A stretch of 64,000 nucleotides of DNA from Stygiobacter sp. RIFOXYC2_FULL_38_25 (GTDB taxonomy: Bacteria > Bacteroidota > Ignavibacteria > Ignavibacteriales > Melioribacteraceae), in assembly GCA_001803165.1 (NCBI GenBank), contig MHAZ01000014.1:1-64000 (forward strand). Direction: 5' to 3'. Below the pieces are notes generated by a model. That model did no database searches. It was not told where the DNA came from and was given only the letters and a program-made list of their open reading frames with translations. A program made the translations under genes and the position numbers. Positions 9,523 through 64,000 of this stretch are shown here, in pieces. Within the stretch, counting starts at the first letter, position 1, and every line of letters starts with the position of its first letter.

Positions 9523-10496
9523 CAGGCTGCCTCTACTTCTTTAAATTTTTCTCTCAGCAATTCTTCGTAATGTTCCTTTAAGTAAGCTTGATTTGAATAG
9601 CGTGGGCTTTTCAAATCTTTAATGCGTTTTGTTTCCACAAGATATTTTAACTCCTCGATACCTTCATCAATGGAATGAATTGATCTGAAGCCGAAAACTT
9701 CTTCTGCTTTTTTAGCAGAAACTCTATAGTTACGGGTATCCTGAAAAGGCATATCTGTCGTTTCAATTGATAAATCCGGGAAATGCATTCTAACTTGATA
9801 AGCCAAATCGCTGATGCGGACATTTTGGCGTGCAAGATTGTAAACTCCTTTGTGCTCAGATTCGAGATTCATATGTACAGCGCGTGCAACATCTTTTACA
9901 TGAAGTAGCGGGCGGAATTGATCGCCGCCGAATACACCGATTTGTCCTTCTACATAAGCACGAACAGTTAAAATGTTTACAACAAGGTCCAATCTGATTC
10001 TTGAGTAGAGATCACCAACACCAAAGAGAGTTCCAAGACGGAAAATGATTGCGTTTTTATGTTTTAGAAATTTCTCTGCGTTTAGTTTTGTTTCAGCATA
10101 AAGGGAAAGAGGATTTGTTCCAGATGTTTCACTTAGCTCTAAATTCTGAGCGCCGTAAACCGAACAAGTTGACATGAAAACAATTCTGCCATCGTAATTA
10201 TCCGCAAGCCATGCAACTGAATCTTGATTGATTGCGCGGGTTAATTCCGGATTAAGCTGGCAAGCTCCATCGCCAACAATTGCAGCAAGCCAAACAACAG
10301 CATCAGCCCATTTTAAGTGTGGTTTCAATTTTTCATGATCACGCACATCGCCATGAACAAAATCAACCGGCTTTCTAAAAGAGTCTTCGTACAAGAGAGC
10401 GTCATATACTCTTACATTATAATTTGATTGCTGTATTAAATCTGTAATAGCTCCGCCTACATAACCGGCACCGCCAACTATTAGTACGTTTTTCAT
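9522..10496 (-). CDS. NAD-dependent nucleotide-sugar epimerase/dehydratase (extended SDR)
   Basis: 324 residues from the ATG at 10496. GGAGYVGGAI is the nucleotide-binding glycine motif, MSTCSVYGA and YAETK supply the catalytic Ser/Thr and Tyr-x-x-x-Lys, and LLHVKDVARA is typical of GalE/RmlB-like enzymes. A longer frame starts at 10559, but 10496 forms an ATGA overlap with the upstream stop, has an AAGGA ribosome site and puts the Rossmann motif at the N-terminus, so it is preferred. The enzyme likely makes an activated sugar for flagellin glycosylation; substrate unknown. Confidence 0.85.
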   Translation of the reverse strand: MKNVLIVGGAGYVGGAITDLIQQSNYNVRVYDALLYEDSFRKPVDFVHGDVRDHEKLKPHLKWADAVVWLAAIVGDGACQLNPELTRAINQDSVAWLADNYDGRIVFMSTCSVYGAQNLELSETSGTNPLSLYAETKLNAEKFLKHKNAIIFRLGTLFGVGDLYSRIRLDLVVNILTVRAYVEGQIGVFGGDQFRPLLHVKDVARAVHMNLESEHKGVYNLARQNVRISDLAYQVRMHFPDLSIETTDMPFQDTRNYRVSAKKAEEVFGFRSIHSIDEGIEELKYLVETKRIKDLKSPRYSNQAYLKEHYEELLREKFKEVEAA

Positions 10497-11569
10497 TTCT
10501 GTAGTTCCTTTTTTAAAATGCTCACAATTTTGTCTGATGTCTTGCCGTCTCCAAGCCATTTCAATTGAGCCGGAGATATTGAATAGTTCTTAAAGAATGA
10601 AACTGTTTCCGAAACCATTTTGCTTATTGGTCTGTCTTCTCCAACCATTATGCTGTTTCCTTGTTCAACCGATTCCGGTCTTTCAGTTGCTTTACGTGGA
10701 ACGGCAACCGGAACTCCGAGCAGCGGGCATTCTTCCTGGCTTGTTCCCGAATCGGAAATTATTCCGTAAGCGTTGTATTGAAGATTTAAGTAGTCAAGAA
10801 AACCATAAGGACCAACAAGCGAGATATTCTTTTTGTCTTTAAGAAGTTTATACTTCTCAATCATTTTGGCAGCGCGGTTAAACTTAACAAGCTTTACTTC
10901 CATGTTAAGTTTTAGCCCAACTGTATTGATGTAATCTAATATGTGATTGAACTGCTGATGAGTTTTTAAATTTTCCGTTCTGTGAACATCCGCGACTACA
11001 AAATCTTTTGAGCGCTTGCCGGTTGGCTTATACTGTTTAACTATTTCAACTATTGTATTTCCAACAACGTGTATCTGTTTTGGATTTTTATTTTCCGCGA
11101 TAAGTCTTTCTTTATATAAAGGTGTGTAAACAAAAACGGAATCGGAAACGTAATCGCAAATAACACGGTTAACTTCTTCCGGCATTCTTCTATCGTAAGA
11201 ACGCATTCCTCCTTCTATGTGCCCAATCTTGTATCCTTCTTTGAATAACGGAGCGCTTACAAGTACGGAGTTTGAATCACCAAGAAAGAGAATTATTTCC
11301 GGGTTTATTTTTTTCTTCTTCAACAGATGGATAACTTCTTTTGAGAGATAGGAAAGTTGCTCGTAGTGGTTAGTGCTGTTCTTACCGGTTTCTAATGTAA
11401 AATCCGGTTTGCGGATTTTTAATTCACTAAAAAATATCTTGCTTAACGAATCATCGTAATGCTGACCTGTATGAACCATGATATGATTAAAATTCTGATC
11501 TAATTTTTCAAAAACCTTACTCATGCGAATGAAATCCGGGCGGATTCCGGTAATGGTTACAATCTGCAT
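10493..11569 (-). CDS. wecB: UDP-N-acetylglucosamine 2-epimerase (non-hydrolysing)
   Basis: 358 residues, full length for the family. It opens with IVTITGIRPDFIRMSKVF and has VHTGQHYDD, GHIEGGMRSYDRRMPEEVNR, VVGNTIVE and the C-terminal SDSGTSQEECPLLGVPV, all hallmarks of WecB/NeuC-type epimerases that convert UDP-GlcNAc to UDP-ManNAc in the cytoplasm. Some residues vary from WecB (ITGIRPD for TGTRPE), so the substrate may be a modified hexosamine. It is the first gene of the sugar/glycosyltransferase operon, with a sigma-54-type promoter ending 26 bases upstream and an AAAAAAGGGTG ribosome site. Confidence 0.85.
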   Translation of the reverse strand: MQIVTITGIRPDFIRMSKVFEKLDQNFNHIMVHTGQHYDDSLSKIFFSELKIRKPDFTLETGKNSTNHYEQLSYLSKEVIHLLKKKKINPEIILFLGDSNSVLVSAPLFKEGYKIGHIEGGMRSYDRRMPEEVNRVICDYVSDSVFVYTPLYKERLIAENKNPKQIHVVGNTIVEIVKQYKPTGKRSKDFVVADVHRTENLKTHQQFNHILDYINTVGLKLNMEVKLVKFNRAAKMIEKYKLLKDKKNISLVGPYGFLDYLNLQYNAYGIISDSGTSQEECPLLGVPVAVPRKATERPESVEQGNSIMVGEDRPISKMVSETVSFFKNYSISPAQLKWLGDGKTSDKIVSILKKELQK

Positions 11570-41349: not shown

Positions 41350-42336
41350 TCAAAAGGATTTATGTTCTTCTAATAATTTCTTAGTTACTTTAATTGCTTT
41401 TTTATTATTGGAAACTCCTACTCTTCCCAAGAAAAGAAGCTGCGAGCCGGTTCTCACTTTTTGATCATCACTGACTTTTGTTTCCAAACGGATAATATCT
41501 CCGTTCTGCATTTCCAGAAGTTCGCGTACCGAGAGCATAGAAGTACCAAGCTCAACTTTAATGGGAACGGATGTTTTGGAAAGATGATGAGTAACTACAT
41601 CGCGTGCGGTTTGCCCATAGTGTTTAATTGCACGTACCGATGACAATTTTTGAGAAGATAATCTTGCAAGTATGTTATCGAATGCGAATGTAGCGTAGCA
41701 AATGTTCATCAAGTAGGATTGTTCGCCAATCAGTATTTCAAAAGAGATAAGAAGAACGGATTCACTTTGCGATGTTATTTGCGCAAAATCTATATCCGGT
41801 TCAAAACGTTCAATAACAAATTCCATATTATCAATTGTCTGCCAGGCTTTTTTCAAATCTTGCATTACACGTTCAACAACTACTCTCAAAACTTTCTGTT
41901 CAATTGGTGTGATAATCTTTGTCTGCTTTGAACCAAGACCATTACCGCCGAGAAGTTTATCAACCAATGAAAGAGCCAGATCGTTGTTTAGTTCGAGAAT
42001 ACCTTTTACATCTGTGTCTTTAACATCAAACGTAAAAAGGCAAGCCGGATTTGAAACAGAGAGGACATACTCGGAATAGTAAATTTGATCAACGGAAGTA
42101 ACGTTGATGTTTACAACCGTTTGAAGTTTTGTTACAAGAAACGAACTGAAACTTTCAGCAAAGTTTTCAAAGATGCTTCTTAGAACCCGAAGCTGATTTT
42201 TTGATATTCTGTTTGGCAAACGGAAATCAAAAAGAATTGCTTCTTTTTCCGAAGAAGATTCTATCTTCTGTTCTGAGCCGCTTTTAATGTTATTAAGCAG
42301 CGCATCAATTTCTTGTTGTGATAATATCTCTGCCAT
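41350..42336 (-). CDS. fliM: Flagellar motor switch protein FliM
   Basis: 328 residues. The N-terminus ILSQQEIDALLNNI is the CheY-P-binding peptide. The middle domain has RNQ-like ISKNQLRVLRSIFENFAESF and GKILGG-type LVDKLLGGNG segments, and the C-terminal SPOA domain covers VPIKVELGTSMLSVRELLEMQNGDIIRLE. It forms the C-ring middle layer and reverses the motor on CheY-P binding. One base separates it from fliL. Confidence 0.95.
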   Translation of the reverse strand: MAEILSQQEIDALLNNIKSGSEQKIESSSEKEAILFDFRLPNRISKNQLRVLRSIFENFAESFSSFLVTKLQTVVNINVTSVDQIYYSEYVLSVSNPACLFTFDVKDTDVKGILELNNDLALSLVDKLLGGNGLGSKQTKIITPIEQKVLRVVVERVMQDLKKAWQTIDNMEFVIERFEPDIDFAQITSQSESVLLISFEILIGEQSYLMNICYATFAFDNILARLSSQKLSSVRAIKHYGQTARDVVTHHLSKTSVPIKVELGTSMLSVRELLEMQNGDIIRLETKVSDDQKVRTGSQLLFLGRVGVSNNKKAIKVTKKLLEEHKSF

Positions 42337-56294: not shown

Positions 56295-57887
56295 CTATTT
56301 CACCAGCATCATTTTCTTTGCAACGATAGTTGTTGGAGTTGTTAAACGATAGAAATAAATTCCACTTGATAGAGACGCTGCATGCAACGTCTCAACGTTA
56401 AACCTAACTTTATAATTTCCTGCTTGTTTGAATTCATCAACTAATGTTGCCACTTCTTTTCCAAGCAGATTGTAAACCATTAGTGTTACATGTTCACTCT
56501 TTGGAATTGAGTAACTAATTACTGTCTCCGGATTAAATGGATTGGGATAATTTTGCTCTAAACTTATCTCTGTTGGAATTATTTTTCCTTTCTCGACGCC
56601 AACCATTACTGCTTTCCTTCCGAAGGCTAAACTATCATATGGCAAAGTTTTTAACAGCTTAACTTTGTTACGCATTATTGTTATACTTTCTTTATAATCT
56701 TTACCAAGCGCCGGAACCAGCGCCATCATTACCCACTGCGTATCATTGGGTGCTAAGTTAAATGGACCGGAAGAAAGATTAAAACCGGCACCGCCGCCTG
56801 AATTACCATAGCCCCAAAGCCAACCACTGTTTGTAACCGGATCACCACTGTAAGAGAATTTTGTTACGCTGTTGTTTGATGAATCCACTTTGGCTTTACC
56901 GGAAGGATAAAAGCCCCGCACAATGTTCCAAGCTTCTGTTCGTGAAAACGATGGTCGATCTACACCAGCCAAATATGGATAATCGTCATATATTGCTTGG
57001 AATGACGTTACATTCAAATTAGCAAAGTCATTTCTGAGTTGTCCTTTAAAAACCGCTTTTTTCTTGTAAGCCGGAACGGCTGGTCCAAATAAAAGAGTGT
57101 AGCCAATAGCAGGCTGTGGTTTTGTTTTATTTGACCACATATAACCCAAATTATTTGTTGTATCAACAGCAGGAAAATTTGCTGTTGCCATATCAAAATC
57201 AATATCTGTCCAAAACGAAAAGTACGCTGAATCAATTGGCAAAGTTCCCTTGTTAATAATTGTCCATTCAAAGAATACTGTATTGGAAAATAAATCCACT
57301 TCATCTTTGCTATTACCCTTCTTTGCATAGACCAGCTGATGTATCTCTAGCGGCATTATTGGTAACGAATCGGTGAAACTTGGAATTTGTTTTTTAACTG
57401 ATGGGAACATTGCGTTATAGGTACACCAAAGGGATTGATCTTGATATAGTTTAGGTTTTCCATCTTTAGTTTTTGGAGCTCCAAATTCGAAAGGCCATTC
57501 AGCATAATCTTTGTTTGTAGTGTTGTCACCTTTCGAAATTTTATAAATGCGGTATTTAAGCGAGTCTTCCGGCTTATACTGCATTGCCGCTTTGTTATTT
57601 ATAATTGGACCCGGCGAGTAATTTGTTCCCCATTGAGATATAGAGAGGTGAACTTTGTTATCAATTTTTCCAATTATCCAGGGACCATGATCATAGACAA
57701 TTGTTGAATCAAATGATAATATTTTCCAAACCCCACCGCCGAAAGCCACTGGTATTGCGCCAAGTTTGCCAATATTTTGTAATGCTAAATGAATGTTGTT
57801 TGAGTTTAGAATTTGAAGATTAATTCTGTTTTGGGAGAATAATAACGAAGCGGTAAACAATATTGTAAGTAAAATTATTTTTTTCAT
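56295..57887 (-). CDS. Secreted protein with T9SS C-terminal sorting domain
   Basis: 530 residues. Sec signal peptide (MKKIILLTILFTASLLFS), a central beta-rich region of unknown function with aromatic and Asp-rich loops (FWTDIDFDMATANF, YMWSNKT), and a C-terminal type A sorting domain of about 85 residues: LEQNYPNPFNPETVISYSIP, VYNLLGKEVATLVDE, SSGIYFYRL, KKMMLVK. Such proteins cross the outer membrane by the type IX system. It is seven bases downstream of another T9SS protein gene. Cargo role unknown; it is not a known flagellar part. Confidence 0.85.
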   Translation of the reverse strand: MKKIILLTILFTASLLFSQNRINLQILNSNNIHLALQNIGKLGAIPVAFGGGVWKILSFDSTIVYDHGPWIIGKIDNKVHLSISQWGTNYSPGPIINNKAAMQYKPEDSLKYRIYKISKGDNTTNKDYAEWPFEFGAPKTKDGKPKLYQDQSLWCTYNAMFPSVKKQIPSFTDSLPIMPLEIHQLVYAKKGNSKDEVDLFSNTVFFEWTIINKGTLPIDSAYFSFWTDIDFDMATANFPAVDTTNNLGYMWSNKTKPQPAIGYTLLFGPAVPAYKKKAVFKGQLRNDFANLNVTSFQAIYDDYPYLAGVDRPSFSRTEAWNIVRGFYPSGKAKVDSSNNSVTKFSYSGDPVTNSGWLWGYGNSGGGAGFNLSSGPFNLAPNDTQWVMMALVPALGKDYKESITIMRNKVKLLKTLPYDSLAFGRKAVMVGVEKGKIIPTEISLEQNYPNPFNPETVISYSIPKSEHVTLMVYNLLGKEVATLVDEFKQAGNYKVRFNVETLHAASLSSGIYFYRLTTPTTIVAKKMMLVK

Positions 57888-57894
57888 AACACAC

Positions 57895-59037
57895 CTATTT
57901 CAATAATAACATTTTTCTAGTTTGAACCGTATAATTTGTTTTGAAAATACAATAATAAATACCCGATGGTATTACCGAAGCGTTGAAATTAAACTTATAT
58001 AATCCCTTTGTATAAAAACCGTTCGCAAGCGTATATATCTTTCTTCCAAGAATATCATAAACATCTAGACTAATATTCCCGGAATCAGTTATTTCAAATT
58101 TTATTTCTGTGGTCGGGTTAAAAGGGTTGGGATAATTTTGGAAAAGATAATCTCTAAAGTCCTCTCTTTCAGTTGAAACTTGTATTTGGTTACTCTCTTC
58201 CGTCATTTTTGCGGGTATAATATTGATGCTTACTGTGTTTGAAGGTACTGAGTTTTTGTAGACATTTCTTTTACGAATTTGATAATACGCTATTGCACCT
58301 GTCCCGGTAAAGTACTCTGAATCATAATAAGAAGTTGCGTTACGACCTAATGTTGCTATTTGATCAAATCCGTCTGGTCCTCCAGAATACACAAGTGATC
58401 TGTAAACATCAACATTAGTCCAGAAATCTTGTTGATCATTATTATTCCAATATAGTTGAGGATGAATACCTCCGCTCGAATAAACGAACAGATTAGTAGG
58501 CGCTTGTGGTTCAAAGAGATCTGTTTCTTGTTCACAGCACATATGGGCTGTATAAATCCAAGATTCAACCAATTCATCATTGATCGACATATTATTCCAA
58601 GGAGGAGTAGAATTATTAAATCTAAATAATGAATTGGTGTAATTGAAAGTAACTTCTAAATCTGGCGTATTATTATAATCAATGCATGTTCTTAAATCGT
58701 AATAAAAATAAGCTAATAGACTGTCATTACTATTTTTAGCTGTAACTTTATATAATCCTTTGCCCATACCAGTTGTTTCGCCAGTTCTAAACCAGAATGA
58801 GTCGTAGGTATTTGAATATGACAATGTAAAATTTTGATAAGTATAATAACTATTAAGAACTAAATTATTTTGGAAGTCCCAGTGTGAAGTAGAAGGTACT
58901 TTTTCTGTTTCGAAAGTTAGCTCAACTTCTTGCGGTATGTTTAAGCCGAATATTTTTAATTCACCCAGCATAAGTACAGATTGCTGCGCATTAAGTAAAG
59001 TACAAACAAATAATAGTATCAAAAGTGTTGTTTTCAT
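57895..59037 (-). CDS. Second secreted T9SS-sorted protein
   Basis: 380 residues from the ATG at 59037, which has AGGAG five bases upstream and begins a signal peptide (MKTTLLILLFVCTLLNAQ); a frame running to 59121 is rejected. A fibronectin-like segment with APTNLFVYSSGGIHPQLYWNNNDQQDF in pattern (about 190-270) precedes the sorting domain: FQNYPNPFNPTTEIKFEI, VYDILGRKIYTLANG, IPSGIYYCIF, RKMLLLK. Partner of the preceding gene in an apparent two-gene unit between motility operons. Confidence 0.85.
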   Translation of the reverse strand: MKTTLLILLFVCTLLNAQQSVLMLGELKIFGLNIPQEVELTFETEKVPSTSHWDFQNNLVLNSYYTYQNFTLSYSNTYDSFWFRTGETTGMGKGLYKVTAKNSNDSLLAYFYYDLRTCIDYNNTPDLEVTFNYTNSLFRFNNSTPPWNNMSINDELVESWIYTAHMCCEQETDLFEPQAPTNLFVYSSGGIHPQLYWNNNDQQDFWTNVDVYRSLVYSGGPDGFDQIATLGRNATSYYDSEYFTGTGAIAYYQIRKRNVYKNSVPSNTVSINIIPAKMTEESNQIQVSTEREDFRDYLFQNYPNPFNPTTEIKFEITDSGNISLDVYDILGRKIYTLANGFYTKGLYKFNFNASVIPSGIYYCIFKTNYTVQTRKMLLLK

Positions 59038-59056
59038 TTTAGCTCCTATATGAGCG

Positions 59057-59085
59057 TTTTGCAAAGCCCAAAGTTGGTTTTGCAA
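59057..59085. repeat. Two TTTTGCAA boxes 21 bp apart before secreted-protein gene
   Basis: TTTTGCAA at 59057-59064 and again at 59078-59085, two helical turns apart and 20-48 bases before the start codon at 59037. Because TTGCAA is itself a palindrome, the pair also reads as an inverted repeat. The arrangement suits a dimeric repressor or activator; this is inference. Confidence 0.4.
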
Positions 59086-59413
59086 TGTATAGTCTCTGCT
59101 ATGTAGCTGTATTACTTTCATTTGAGCAGTCTATTATTAGCTTTACAAAAGAAAGATTCCATTTATAAACTGAATCAGTTCTTTTTACAGAAAATATAAG
59201 TGCTGTGCTGAAATTTATTTTTTACTTGGTGCTTTTTGTTTTTGCAGAGAACTATAGATGTGTTTTTAGAGACCCCAATTTTGCAGAGCCCCACCCTTTT
59301 TTATTGTTTTATTTTTCGCTTTCAACTTAAGGAAGGATTTTCGACGAAGCAAGAGAAAAAAAGTACACAGAAGATTTTTGTTGGTTCGATTTTATGGAAT
59401 AGTTATCGTAAAT

Positions 59414-59699: not shown

Positions 59700-60773
59700 T
59701 TACACCACCACTCTATTTATCATTTCCGGTATTTTTTCTGCCGGCAGAACAACATCAGCAAATCCGCCGTCAACAATTGCTTTCGGCATTCCATACACTA
59801 CACAGGATTCTTCATCTTGAGCGATTGCATATCCGCCGATTGATTTTAAATTTTTAACTGCTTCGTAACCGTCTTTGCCCATGCCGGTCATTATAATTCC
59901 AAGAGTATATTTTCCGTAAACGCCAACAACAGAATCCATCATAACATCAACAGAGGGGCGGTGAAGAGTGCCGCTTGGTTCCGGCGAAATTTCAATTGTT
60001 GCCGAGCTTAATGATGAGCCGCGCAGCTTCATGTGAAATCCGCCCGGCGCAATATAGATATAACCGTTTTTCACCGGCTCGCCATGCTCTGCTTCTTTTA
60101 CTTCCAACTTGCAACTGCCGTTTAATCTTTCAGCCAAAGACTTTGTAAACTTAGGGGGCATGTGCTGAACAATAAAAATTGGAACATTAATTTTTTCTGA
60201 AATCAACGGAAGAACTTTTTGAAGTGTGAAAGGACCGCCCGTCGAAATTCCAAGCGCAATAGCTCTGTAACCTGCACGTGGTAAATCTTTTAAGAAGCCG
60301 GTTACTCTTGGTCGAAAAGACGGAGTTGAAGAAATAGCTTTTATTCTATCGAGACGGGCTTTAAGAAGTTTTGTGCGCGCAATTTCTTTTACTTTGGTAA
60401 TTAAATCTTCTTTTATTTTGGAGATGTTAACGCTAACGTAAGACATTTCTTTCGGAATGAAATCAACAGCGCCAATTTCCAAAGCTTTTAATGTTGCTTG
60501 CGCTCCTTCTGTTGTTACAGAGCTTACCATTAAAACAGAAGTTGGGCACTGTGCCATTATTAATTTTAGTGCTGTAAGTCCATCCATCACGGGCATTTCA
60601 ACATCAAGGGTAATTACGTCGGGCTTAAGTTTATTTGCTAACTCTACACCTTCTTGTCCGTTGCGCGCAGTTCCAACAACACCAATACCCGGGTCGCTTT
60701 CCAGCATTATGGTAAGTGATTTCCGCATGAATGCGGAATCATCAATAATCAGCACTGAAACTTTGTCTCTCAA
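59700..60773 (-). CDS. cheB: CheB protein-glutamate methylesterase
   Basis: 357 residues from a TTG at 60773 that overlaps the cheA stop (TTGA); no ATG lies nearby in frame before the receiver motifs. Receiver domain (1-120): LIIDDSAFMRKSL, acceptor Asp in TLDVEMPVMDGLTAL. Methylesterase domain: LGISTGGPFTLQKVL with the catalytic Ser, FIVQHMPPKFTKSLAERL with His, and IIMTGMGKDGYEAVK with Asp. It removes methyl groups from chemoreceptors. No cheR, cheW or receptor gene is in the window. Confidence 0.94.
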   Translation of the reverse strand: MRDKVSVLIIDDSAFMRKSLTIMLESDPGIGVVGTARNGQEGVELANKLKPDVITLDVEMPVMDGLTALKLIMAQCPTSVLMVSSVTTEGAQATLKALEIGAVDFIPKEMSYVSVNISKIKEDLITKVKEIARTKLLKARLDRIKAISSTPSFRPRVTGFLKDLPRAGYRAIALGISTGGPFTLQKVLPLISEKINVPIFIVQHMPPKFTKSLAERLNGSCKLEVKEAEHGEPVKNGYIYIAPGGFHMKLRGSSLSSATIEISPEPSGTLHRPSVDVMMDSVVGVYGKYTLGIIMTGMGKDGYEAVKNLKSIGGYAIAQDEESCVVYGMPKAIVDGGFADVVLPAEKIPEMINRVVV

Positions 60774-62587
60774 GCGTTTGCTTCCAGCTTATTAAATAGT
60801 TCGTGAATATCCAAAATCATAACAACGGTTCCATCGCCCATAATTGTTGAGCCGGCTATTCCATCTATCTTGCCAAGATAGCTGCCGAGAGATTTGATTA
60901 CAACTTCCTGCTGACCAACAAGGTCGTCAACTTTAATTCCGTACCGTTTTTCTGCTATGCCAACTTCAACAACATACTGCCAGCCGTTTCTCTCTGCTTT
61001 CTGTCCGTTCAATTTTCCTTTCAACAATTCTTTGAGTGAAACAAGGGGAAGAATAGAATCCCTAACTTGTATAACTTCTTTTCCTTTGATGGAATAAATC
61101 TGTTCTGCGTTAACTCTAATAACTTCTATTACCGATCCAAGCGGTATTACAATAGTTTCATTGTACGCTTTTACAATCATTCCGGAAATGATAGCTAAAG
61201 TAAGAGGCAACTTAATAATAATTTTAGTTCCTTTGCCCAGCTCCGATTCAATATTAATTATACCGCGTAATTTGGAAACGTTTGTTTTAACAACATCCAT
61301 TCCCACACCGCGTCCGGAAACGTTTGATACTTTTTCTGCTGTTGAAAAGCCCGGCAAGAAAATTAGGTTGATTGCTTCTTGGCGTGTTAACTCTTTGGCT
61401 TTCTCTTTTGTTATTAATCCTTTGCCAACTGCTTTCTCTTTTAAAGCTTCTATATCTAAACCTTTGCCGTCATCTTCAATAGTAATTACAATATTGTTGC
61501 CGAGCTGTTCTGCGGCAAGTATTACAGTTCCCTTCGGATTTTTCCCAGCCGCAATTCTTACTTCAGGTTTTTCAACTCCGTGATCTACCGAGTTACGGAT
61601 AAGGTGAACCAGCGGATCGTTAATTTCTTCAATTAAGTTTTTATCTACTTCGGTCTCTTCACCTTTAATTACAAGTTCAACCTCTTTGTTCAAGTCTCTT
61701 GTAAGATCGCGAACCAATCTTGGGTAGCGGTTGAAAATTTTTGCAATCTTAATCATGCGCAGCTTCATTGCTACCAACTGCAATTCGGTTGTCATCAAAT
61801 CAATTTGCTTTGTTACTTCACCAAAATCGCGGACGTATCTATTGCCTTCGTTTTCAACCGAGAAATGAGTAGTAACCTGCGCTAAACGGTTGCGTCCCAA
61901 AACCATTTCGGAAACAATATCCAGTAAAGAATCCAATCTATCAACATCAACTCTAATTGTGTTTTCTTTTACAGGTGCGGCGGCGGCTTTCTCTATTGCT
62001 TCAACTTTTCTTTCTTCTTGTTTCGGCTTTTCCGGCTGAATTGTTTCTTTTGCAGTTTCTAATGCTGCTTCTCTGGCGGCGGCTTTTGCTTCTTCTTCTT
62101 CAAATTTCGCAAGCGCTTCTTGCGATACTTCCGCCTTAACTTGTACAACTTCTTCAGTTTTCTCGCTTTCAATTTCTCTTAACAGACCTTCGAGAATAAG
62201 GCAAACATTTTCTATAGCAACATTTTCATTCTGTTCGGTTTCAATTTTGTTAAGAAGTTCTTTTATCGTATCGAAGGCAAGAATAATTCCATCCATCAGA
62301 GCTTCGGAAAGGACCGCTTCACCCTTGCGGAGTTTATTGAGAATATCTTCGCACTTGTGAGTTACTTCCGGCAAAGCTTCCAAACCAAGAAAGCCCGAAG
62401 TTCCTTTAATTGTGTGGAAGGAACGGAATATTTGGTTGAGCAGTTCTTTGTCGTCCGGTTTTTTTTCTAATTCAAGAAGATCTACATCAAGTTTCTCAAG
62501 AATCTCCTTGGTCTCAACAATAAAGCTCTCAACAATCTCTTTCATCTCCGGATCGATGAGAGTCGGGTTTTTAGTTAACTGACTCAT
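60770..62587 (-). CDS. cheA: CheA chemotaxis histidine kinase
   Basis: 605 residues. P1 Hpt domain (about 15-120) with IFRSFHTIKGTSGFLG carrying the phospho-His near 55; a Glu/Lys/Ala-rich linker (about 145-205) where the CheY-binding P2 would be, but no clear P2 fold; P3 dimerisation (LDSLLDIVSEMVLGRNRLAQV); P4 kinase with HLIRNSVDHGVE, IEDDGKGLD, FLPGFSTAEKVSNVSGRGVGMDVV in pattern; P5 CheW-like domain to the end. It phosphorylates CheY and CheB. Missing P2 suggests direct transfer. It overlaps the CheZ-like gene by four bases. Confidence 0.94.
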   Translation of the reverse strand: MSQLTKNPTLIDPEMKEIVESFIVETKEILEKLDVDLLELEKKPDDKELLNQIFRSFHTIKGTSGFLGLEALPEVTHKCEDILNKLRKGEAVLSEALMDGIILAFDTIKELLNKIETEQNENVAIENVCLILEGLLREIESEKTEEVVQVKAEVSQEALAKFEEEEAKAAAREAALETAKETIQPEKPKQEERKVEAIEKAAAAPVKENTIRVDVDRLDSLLDIVSEMVLGRNRLAQVTTHFSVENEGNRYVRDFGEVTKQIDLMTTELQLVAMKLRMIKIAKIFNRYPRLVRDLTRDLNKEVELVIKGEETEVDKNLIEEINDPLVHLIRNSVDHGVEKPEVRIAAGKNPKGTVILAAEQLGNNIVITIEDDGKGLDIEALKEKAVGKGLITKEKAKELTRQEAINLIFLPGFSTAEKVSNVSGRGVGMDVVKTNVSKLRGIINIESELGKGTKIIIKLPLTLAIISGMIVKAYNETIVIPLGSVIEVIRVNAEQIYSIKGKEVIQVRDSILPLVSLKELLKGKLNGQKAERNGWQYVVEVGIAEKRYGIKVDDLVGQQEVVIKSLGSYLGKIDGIAGSTIMGDGTVVMILDIHELFNKLEANA

Positions 62588-63351
62588 TTTTTCGAAAATA
62601 GTTCGTCTATTTCTTTTTGTGATGGTTGACTTTGTGTATCGGCTACGAGAGAATCTGCCAGCACTTGTGAATTATGATCTCTATCGTATTTCGCATCGGG
62701 ATTGAATGCTAAATCGTTTGGCAGATTTATTCTATTATCAACTTTAGCATCAGCTTCTTCTTTTGGACCAATATCAAACAGAAGCGAAGAAAGTTTTGTT
62801 TGGATTGAATTCATTAAATGATTTGCCGAAGCCAATTGTTGTGCCGTTATATCCTGAACTTGCAAAGAGATTGTGATATTCATTAAGCCAGTTTGAATTT
62901 TATCTGCAAGATTGATTACAGCTGTATAGTCTTCGTGAATAACTTCGGGATCCAATCCGTTTGTAACTAATTCTTTTATATCAGGATCGTCCGGATATTT
63001 TTCACTCAACCGCTGAATGACCTTCTTTTGAATGTCCAACCTTGTTCTAAGGGATTCAAGTTTAGAAATGATAGTGACTAAATCATTAGAAGCGCCGTCA
63101 ACAACATCAAGAATTTCGGTTACGGCAACTTCAGTTGCATTTGTTACACTATTTATCTGTACTGCTGCTTTCGGCAGTTTATTTGTGCTGTCCAAAATTG
63201 ATTGATTCACATTCTCAAGAAGCGGAATAGTAGCTTTCATGAAATCAACAATCTTTTCAATAGTTGGAATTAATTTTTGCCCATACGCAAAAAAAGAATT
63301 CACGTCGCTTAATTTGTCGAACAGGCTCTGCATATTTTGTACTTGATCCAT
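62584..63351 (-). CDS. cheZ: CheZ-like CheY-P phosphatase with FliM-like C-terminal peptide
   Basis: 255 residues, helical. About 130-195 resembles the CheZ four-helix hairpin: ISLQVQDITAQQLASANHL has D-x-T-x-Q, matching DLTGQ where CheZ uses Asp and Gln to position CheY-P for hydrolysis. The protein ends SQPSQKEIDELFSKK, similar to the CheY-binding N-terminus of FliM here (LSQQEIDALL). The gene lies between cheY and cheA, the usual cheZ neighbourhood. Overall similarity is weak, so this is a remote call; an unrelated helical adaptor is the alternative. Confidence 0.65.
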   Translation of the reverse strand: MDQVQNMQSLFDKLSDVNSFFAYGQKLIPTIEKIVDFMKATIPLLENVNQSILDSTNKLPKAAVQINSVTNATEVAVTEILDVVDGASNDLVTIISKLESLRTRLDIQKKVIQRLSEKYPDDPDIKELVTNGLDPEVIHEDYTAVINLADKIQTGLMNITISLQVQDITAQQLASANHLMNSIQTKLSSLLFDIGPKEEADAKVDNRINLPNDLAFNPDAKYDRDHNSQVLADSLVADTQSQPSQKEIDELFSKK

Positions 63352-63359
63352 GTTAGCAC

Positions 63360-63743
63360 CTACGCAACGGGAGTTGCAATAATTTGTTCAATTTTCTCTC
63401 TAAGCACTTGTGGTGTAAATGGCTTAACAATATAATTGTTAACCTTAGCTTGAAGAGCTTCAACTATGTCTTCCTTCATTCCGCGTGTTGTTACCATTAA
63501 GATTGGCAAAGTTTCATACTTTGGATTAGCACGAACTGCTTTAACTAAATCCAGCCCGGTTAGATCGGGCATGTTCCAATCGGTTATAATAAAATTTATT
63601 GAATCATCTGCTTGCAGTTTAGTAAGAGCTTCTCTCCCGTCGCCGGCTTCAACAAACGCTTCGTGCCCAATTTGCTTAAGAGAGTTAAGAACAATTCTAC
63701 GCATTGTTACAGAATCATCCACAACCAAAAATTTAAGTGCCAT
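63360..63743 (-). CDS. cheY: CheY chemotaxis response regulator
   Basis: 127 residues, receiver only. LVVDDSVTMRRIVLNSLKQIG at the N-terminus, acceptor Asp in FIITDWNMPDLTGLDLV, Thr in MVTTRGMKEDI, and YIVKPFTPQVLREKI with the conserved Lys. This is the classic CheY pattern. When phosphorylated by CheA it binds FliM to switch rotation. It is eight bases upstream of the CheZ-like gene. Confidence 0.93.
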   Translation of the reverse strand: MALKFLVVDDSVTMRRIVLNSLKQIGHEAFVEAGDGREALTKLQADDSINFIITDWNMPDLTGLDLVKAVRANPKYETLPILMVTTRGMKEDIVEALQAKVNNYIVKPFTPQVLREKIEQIIATPVA

Positions 63744-63753
63744 GTTTATACCT

Positions 63754-64000
63754 TTAGTTTAAATATTTCGAAACTTCGTAAGCTACTCTTTTCGGGTCGA
63801 ACGGTTTAACCAGGTAAGAATTAGCTCCGCATTCCAGACCTCTTTGAATATCTTCAGTTGCACCTAACGAAGAAAGCACAATGATCGGTACTTCTTTATA
63901 TTCAAGATTATTTCTGATTGAGGTAATTAATTCAAATCCATCAACATTTGGCATGTTAAGGTCTGTAATAACCAGATCAACTTTCTGTGTCGGAAGAATT
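63754..64000 (-). CDS. CheY-like response regulator, 5' end outside window
   Basis: Partial; the first codons lie beyond 64000. The visible part reads LVITDLNMPNVDGFELITS with the acceptor Asp, then IVLSSLGATEDI, GANSYLVKPFDPKRVAYEVSKYL, the C-terminal half of a receiver domain. It ends eleven bases before cheY, so it belongs to the same operon. An internal ATG at 63954 falls in the middle of the receiver fold, after the acceptor Asp, and is not the start. Confidence 0.9.
   Translation of the reverse strand, partial: ILPTQKVDLVITDLNMPNVDGFELITSIRNNLEYKEVPIIVLSSLGATEDIQRGLECGANSYLVKPFDPKRVAYEVSKYLN

Follow-up and report, generated by a model that had tools for sequence, protein, structure and literature searches.

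CheZ and FliM have been described as sharing one face of CheY (PMC3774744), and one of the closest known counterparts of the protein analyzed here is the CheZ of Escherichia coli. CheZ proteins remote from the E. coli type have also been described. For example, Helicobacter pylori contains a remote CheZ orthologue (Lertsethtakarn and Ottemann 2010, as cited in PMC7750401). The protein in this study resembles it, as far as that citing account goes, in having a divergent sequence that is recognized by the DxxxQ phosphatase motif, and H. pylori belongs to another phylum. In addition, a CheZ is annotated in Roseithermus sacchariphilus (Rhodothermales), where its locus tag falls between the tags of CheA and a CheY (PMC7409140). 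It is likewise a CheZ beyond the Proteobacteria, and its listing in PMC7409140 is confined to an expression table.

The cheZ locus

The window is the whole 64,000-nucleotide stretch of DNA that was analyzed, and it belongs to a genome of 4.4 Mb with a completeness of 99.8%. The nearest named relatives were Ignavibacteria (a MAG at 92% identity, then Stygiobacter and Melioribacter at approximately 45-55%). The cheZ gene (62584..63351, minus strand) starts with ATG, encodes 255 amino acids and represents a divergent, ignavibacterial type of CheZ with a match to PF04344. The original prediction had described an Asp/Gln spacing and a SQKEIDELF tail in this reading frame, and both can be read directly as D167-x3-Q171 and residues 244-252. 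The gene order in the window is cheR, a receiver termed RR2, cheY, cheZ, cheA and cheB. The cheA gene (60770..62587, minus strand), which encodes Hpt, H-kinase_dim, HATPase and CheW domains, overlaps the stop of cheZ with its start by 4 bp (62584-62587), and cheY (63360..63743, minus strand; 127 amino acids, PF00072) encodes the predicted substrate of CheZ. Among the relatives, 77 of 78 have cheY ahead of cheZ, and 78 of 79 have cheA behind it. A CheZ-CheA fusion was suspected from one relative (L016) and was ruled out, as the apparent long frame crosses a stretch of N. A plasmid search with the window CheZ protein gave no matches.

Two other features were observed near these genes. In L035, the chemotaxis cluster has, ahead of cheR, a gene (10035-11459, minus strand) for a 474-residue protein with the look of HEAT-type repeats, and between the flagellar and che genes of the window (56295-59121, minus strand) two proteins have C-termini resembling type IX secretion sorting domains.

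The adjacent CheY keeps M17, N23, K26, W58, N59, K92, I95, Y106, V108, F111, T112 and K119 at the E. coli contact positions, and we take these 12 positions to be contacts of the CheZ core or of the peptide, from the CheY-CheZ and CheY-FliM complexes. It varies at A88, E89, A90, A99, A103 and K122 of the same face. RR2, the second receiver, lies directly upstream of cheY (63754-64000, extending to 64119 in L035) and is without N23, K26, W58, K92 and K119. Because CheY keeps the contact residues and RR2 has lost several of them, CheY is the likely substrate and RR2 a less likely one.

Assignment to the CheZ family

The window CheZ scored 30.8 bits against PF04344, for which the gathering threshold is 30.7 bits (E 3.4e-7), a margin of 0.1 bit; divergent-type relatives reach up to 47.6 bits. 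The NCBIfam CheZ equivalogs NF008368 and NF041271 remained below cut-off (24.2 bits against a required 257, and 17.6 bits against 350), which puts the protein outside these equivalogs and not outside the family. When 27 homologues from the phylum were compared with six proteobacterial-type CheZ sequences by hhalign, the probability was 96.6% and the E value 5.5e-10, with D143 and Q147 of E. coli placed on D167 and Q171. A further hhalign comparison with six proteobacterial-type CheZ gave an E value of 3.1e-7, again with the catalytic residues aligned. With just the E. coli CheZ on the other side, hhalign gave a weak result (15% probability), and the comparison became convincing once both sides were profiles. 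A PDB search with the single window sequence gave no significant match, and the whole-PDB search with a profile of 74 ignavibacterial sequences ranked the CheZ structure 1KMI first (E 3.7e-4). The view that this protein is a remote CheZ is thus upheld by a narrowly passed Pfam threshold and by profile-profile comparison; judged from its sequence, the protein is an ignavibacterial CheZ of divergent type.

The putative catalytic residues D167 and Q171 lie in the segment LQVQDITAQQ (residues 163-172; 62836..62865, minus strand), and both are invariant in 74 of 74 ignavibacterial sequences. The AlphaFold2 model, which was built with 74 sequences (mean pLDDT 72, pTM 0.43), has helices at residues 2-118, 123-132 and 135-194. 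These form a predicted long helical hairpin corresponding to the CheZ core (residues 2-194; 62770..63348, minus strand), which is followed by an unstructured linker and then by short helices at residues 226-238 and 245-253. CheZ is a dimeric four-helix bundle, and the monomer model is a long hairpin for which 1KMI was absent from the structure matches. The matches from Foldseek (best E 0.27) and from VIA-align (Z approximately 11) were unrelated long coiled coils, such as receptors and PI3K iSH2, and did not include 1KMI. For so generic a hairpin, the missing 1KMI is uninformative.

A generic hairpin, a CheZ structure unlisted among the matches and a Pfam cut-off that is barely exceeded would also suit a CheZ-like coiled-coil protein with some other role, in which the resemblances at D-x3-Q and SQxEIDxLF arose by convergence. 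The profile-profile E value of 5.5e-10 with aligned catalytic residues, the cheY-cheZ-cheA order, the association with FliM and a tail motif with just two occurrences in the genome all argue against this explanation, which we consider extremely improbable.

The window protein was the sole CheZ match in its genome. No member of the CheC, CheX and FliY families (PF04509, PF13690) was found above cut-off genome-wide, and the window CheZ itself matches neither model. It is the only recognizable CheY-P phosphatase in the genome. Among 395 sampled genomes of the phylum, FliM was present in 54 of the 56 genomes with a CheZ match and in 37 of the 339 without one (Fisher p approximately 3e-39, uncorrected for kinship). 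The original prediction had also stated that CheZ is little recorded outside the proteobacteria. This was only partly right: the 56 matching genomes all belong to this phylum, and a CheZ is annotated in Rhodothermales as noted above (PMC7409140). The 37 genomes with FliM and no CheZ match, for example in family f32, would therefore have another CheY-P phosphatase or none.

Other CheZ types were also seen in the phylum. Two genomes of the same class (L002 in G326 and L003 in G243) contain a CheZ near the gammaproteobacterial type, with 195 and 183 bits. Transfer is the probable origin of this CheZ. The same genus includes a third genome, G039, with FliM and no CheZ match. A shorter type of 211-224 amino acids, with the active site QFHDIV[ST]Q, was found in three genomes (L131 in G073, L133 in G018 and L132 in G289). 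It has a single C-terminal motif, which is SQADIDALF in L131 and L133 and NQDDIDDLF in L132.

The C-terminal motif and FliM

The C-terminus of the window CheZ contains a putative docking motif, SQKEIDELF (motif 2, residues 244-252; 62596..62622, minus strand), within the predicted helix at residues 245-253. Its proposed likeness to the N-terminus of FliM is confirmed. The only FliM of the genome (41350-42336, minus strand) carries the competing CheY-binding peptide SQQEIDALL at its N-terminus (42295..42321, minus strand). A degenerate DNA search for [ST]Qx[DE][IV]DxL[LF] on both strands gave two matches in the entire genome, which were the FliM N-terminus and the CheZ tail; the reversed control gave none, and approximately 0.4 matches per genome are expected by chance in a first-order Markov simulation. 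The match between the CheZ tail and FliM is not chance. Motif 2 is kept in 73 of 74 ignavibacterial sequences, and the tail motif carries 3.66 bits per column, compared with 3.45 for active-site residues 155-185 and 1.3-1.7 for variable regions.

It had further been claimed that classic CheZ binds CheY by a different peptide, which our comparison contradicts. E. coli CheZ (1KMI) ends in SQDQVDDLLDSLGF, and its motif SQDQVDDLL follows the frame Q-x2-[IV]-D-x-L-[LF], as in FliM. The other beta- and gammaproteobacterial CheZ sequences in the control set have an E. coli-like ending with one motif each. A FliM-like tail as the feature that sets the window CheZ apart from classic CheZ was ruled out by this E. 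coli tail of the same kind. With the E. coli tail in the FliM frame and a published shared face on CheY, competition between phosphatase and switch is therefore known biology.

Two genomes of one family (G074 and G236) have CheZ and no FliM, and both are without the canonical tail motif, versus 3 of 45 genomes with FliM (Fisher p 0.009, from two non-independent cases). No CheZ tail in these genomes has SQxEIDxLF (L121 in G074:C6, L006 in G236:C33); G074 has two close cheZ genes, and one of its CheZ proteins retains an upstream-type copy, HQSKIDEVV. This suggests that the CheZ of FliM-less genomes serves a non-flagellar chemosensory system. A canonical tail tied to flagellar CheY would fit these genomes, which are no proof of it.

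A second motif and tandem arrays

Two things had escaped the original prediction: a further motif copy upstream and the tandem arrays of relatives. The upstream copy is the degenerate SQVLADSLV (putative docking motif 1, residues 228-236; 62644..62670, minus strand), in the predicted helix at residues 226-238. Among 28,441 pairings of nine-column windows from the 74-sequence profile, that of motif 1 with motif 2 ranked first. When CheZ was searched with a profile built from 24 FliM motifs, motif 2 was the best site (16.1 bits) and motif 1 the second (11.1 bits). Q229 is present in 74 of 74 sequences and D233 in 71 of 74. With a relaxed pattern, exactly two motifs were found in 77 of 80 ignavibacterial CheZ sequences, and none of 100,000 shuffled tails had two. 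Motif 1 reads SQDEIDKLV, SQDEIDIMI and SQDDIDKMI in three relatives (L101, L111 and L115), and in three others (L005, L010 and L130) it is retained though motif 2 is lost. The A2 profile lays the E. coli tail on motif 1 and not on motif 2, and the Pfam match in the window protein reaches residue 253, at motif 2. On either alignment, one copy is left over.

Motif 1 is preceded by the conserved segment FNPDAKYD (residues 216-223; 62683..62706, minus strand) in an otherwise variable linker, with F216, A220 and Y222 invariant or nearly so in the 74 sequences. Because motif 1 is part of a longer conserved stretch that includes these residues, it may do something else.

Sister lineages of the same phylum have tandem runs of three to six motifs; in one such case SQDEIDALF recurs at 16-residue intervals. 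Five SQ[DE]EIDxLF units approximately 16 residues apart, plus the upstream copy, are present in L008 and L011; four canonical units plus one upstream copy in L026 and L019; and two plus one in L017 and L009. In L008 the DNA contains a 48-bp tandem repeat of 4.7 copies. Motif copy number varies inside one genus, since L008, L011, L017 and L026 all belong to genus g72. FliM in the array-bearing genomes has one N-terminal motif ending in LL, and the CheZ units end in LF. Exactly one motif was found in the control CheZ of E. coli, Burkholderia, Cupriavidus, Pantoea and Photobacterium, these controls being beta- and gammaproteobacterial CheZ from E. coli and plasmid records. No description of multi-copy CheZ tails was found in the literature searched, which left out most subscription journals. 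The doubled or multiplied tail thus looks new, and textbook single-tail CheZ offers no counterpart.

The protein might instead be an ordinary CheZ, in which the C-terminal SQKEIDELF alone docks CheY and the upstream QxxADxLV is structural or a dimer contact whose likeness is incidental or vestigial. This reading draws on the longer block FNPDAKYD...Q..AD.LV around motif 1, on the weaker score of motif 1 against the FliM profile and on a Pfam match that reaches motif 2. We consider it unlikely, although it deserves some weight, for several reasons. First, the two motifs are the best internal repeat of the protein. Secondly, motif 1 is SQDEIDKL-like in some relatives and outlasts motif 2 in others. 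Third, motif 1 is where the A2 profile puts the E. coli tail. Lastly, the arrays elsewhere indicate that extra copies are tolerated.

Discussion

Given the homology, the conserved residues, the duplicated motif and the genomic context, the window protein is probably a CheZ-type CheY-P phosphatase of ignavibacterial flagellar chemotaxis, with a flexible tail that would bear multiple CheY-docking sites. Both catalysis and the docking of CheY by either motif are predicted from the conserved residues, and extra copies may bring a kinetic benefit. The helical-hairpin core, which by analogy would form a four-helix bundle as a dimer, would offer D167 and Q171 to the active site of CheY and speed CheY-P hydrolysis. 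The flexible tail of approximately 60 residues would present two short amphipathic helices with the shared frame Q-x2-[AVI]-D-x-[LI]-[VIF], each docking on the alpha4-beta5-alpha5 face of CheY as the FliM N-terminus does. A dimer would then have four tethers and not two, with a larger local supply of CheY-P and more competition with the motor switch. Sister lineages have multiplied their last unit into as many as five copies in a row, for a total of six motifs.

A multivalent tail could also suit sequestration, in a CheZ homologue without phosphatase activity that acts as a CheY sink and competes with FliM. We regard such a sink as improbable, because few parts of the protein are as conserved as the region around D167 and Q171, the two residues being invariant in 74 sequences, and because the genome has no other recognized family of CheY-P phosphatases above cut-off.

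For the multivalent phosphatase, we tentatively propose a broader history, for which the chances are a little short of even. CheZ may have evolved in Ignavibacteria and their relatives into an enzyme with two to six FliM-like helices per chain, tandem duplication altering the number even within a genus, and this number would tune CheY-P capture, the cooperativity of dephosphorylation or the competition with the switch. If so, the number of CheZ tethers is a natural, countable variable, and genomes of one genus, whose CheZ proteins have two to five canonical copies (three to six motifs), would permit a direct test of docking-site number. Such a test could address how fast and how cooperatively CheY-P is dephosphorylated and how the balance with FliM is set, questions for which the one-tail enterobacterial enzyme has so far been used. 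In flagellated Ignavibacteria, the divergent CheZ is the usual candidate for the CheY-P phosphatase.

The window CheZ resembles E. coli CheZ (PF04344; 1KMI) in its D-x3-Q active-site helix, helical core, flexible linker and adjoining cheY, and in a C-terminal helix of the form SQ-x2-[IV]-D-x-L-[LF]. The two differ in several respects. Identity across the aligned core is approximately 20%, and the window CheZ has two copies of the motif whereas E. coli CheZ has one. The window tail ends in ..ELFSKK without the SLGF end and has the extra conserved FNPDAKYD, and cheZ is followed by cheA in the window but by the flhB-flhA genes in E. coli. The motif is shared with the N-terminal peptide of FliM (SQxEIDxLL), and the same face of CheY would be expected to bind both. 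In FliM, however, the motif is N-terminal and ends in LL, whereas the canonical CheZ copies of the phylum mostly end in LF.
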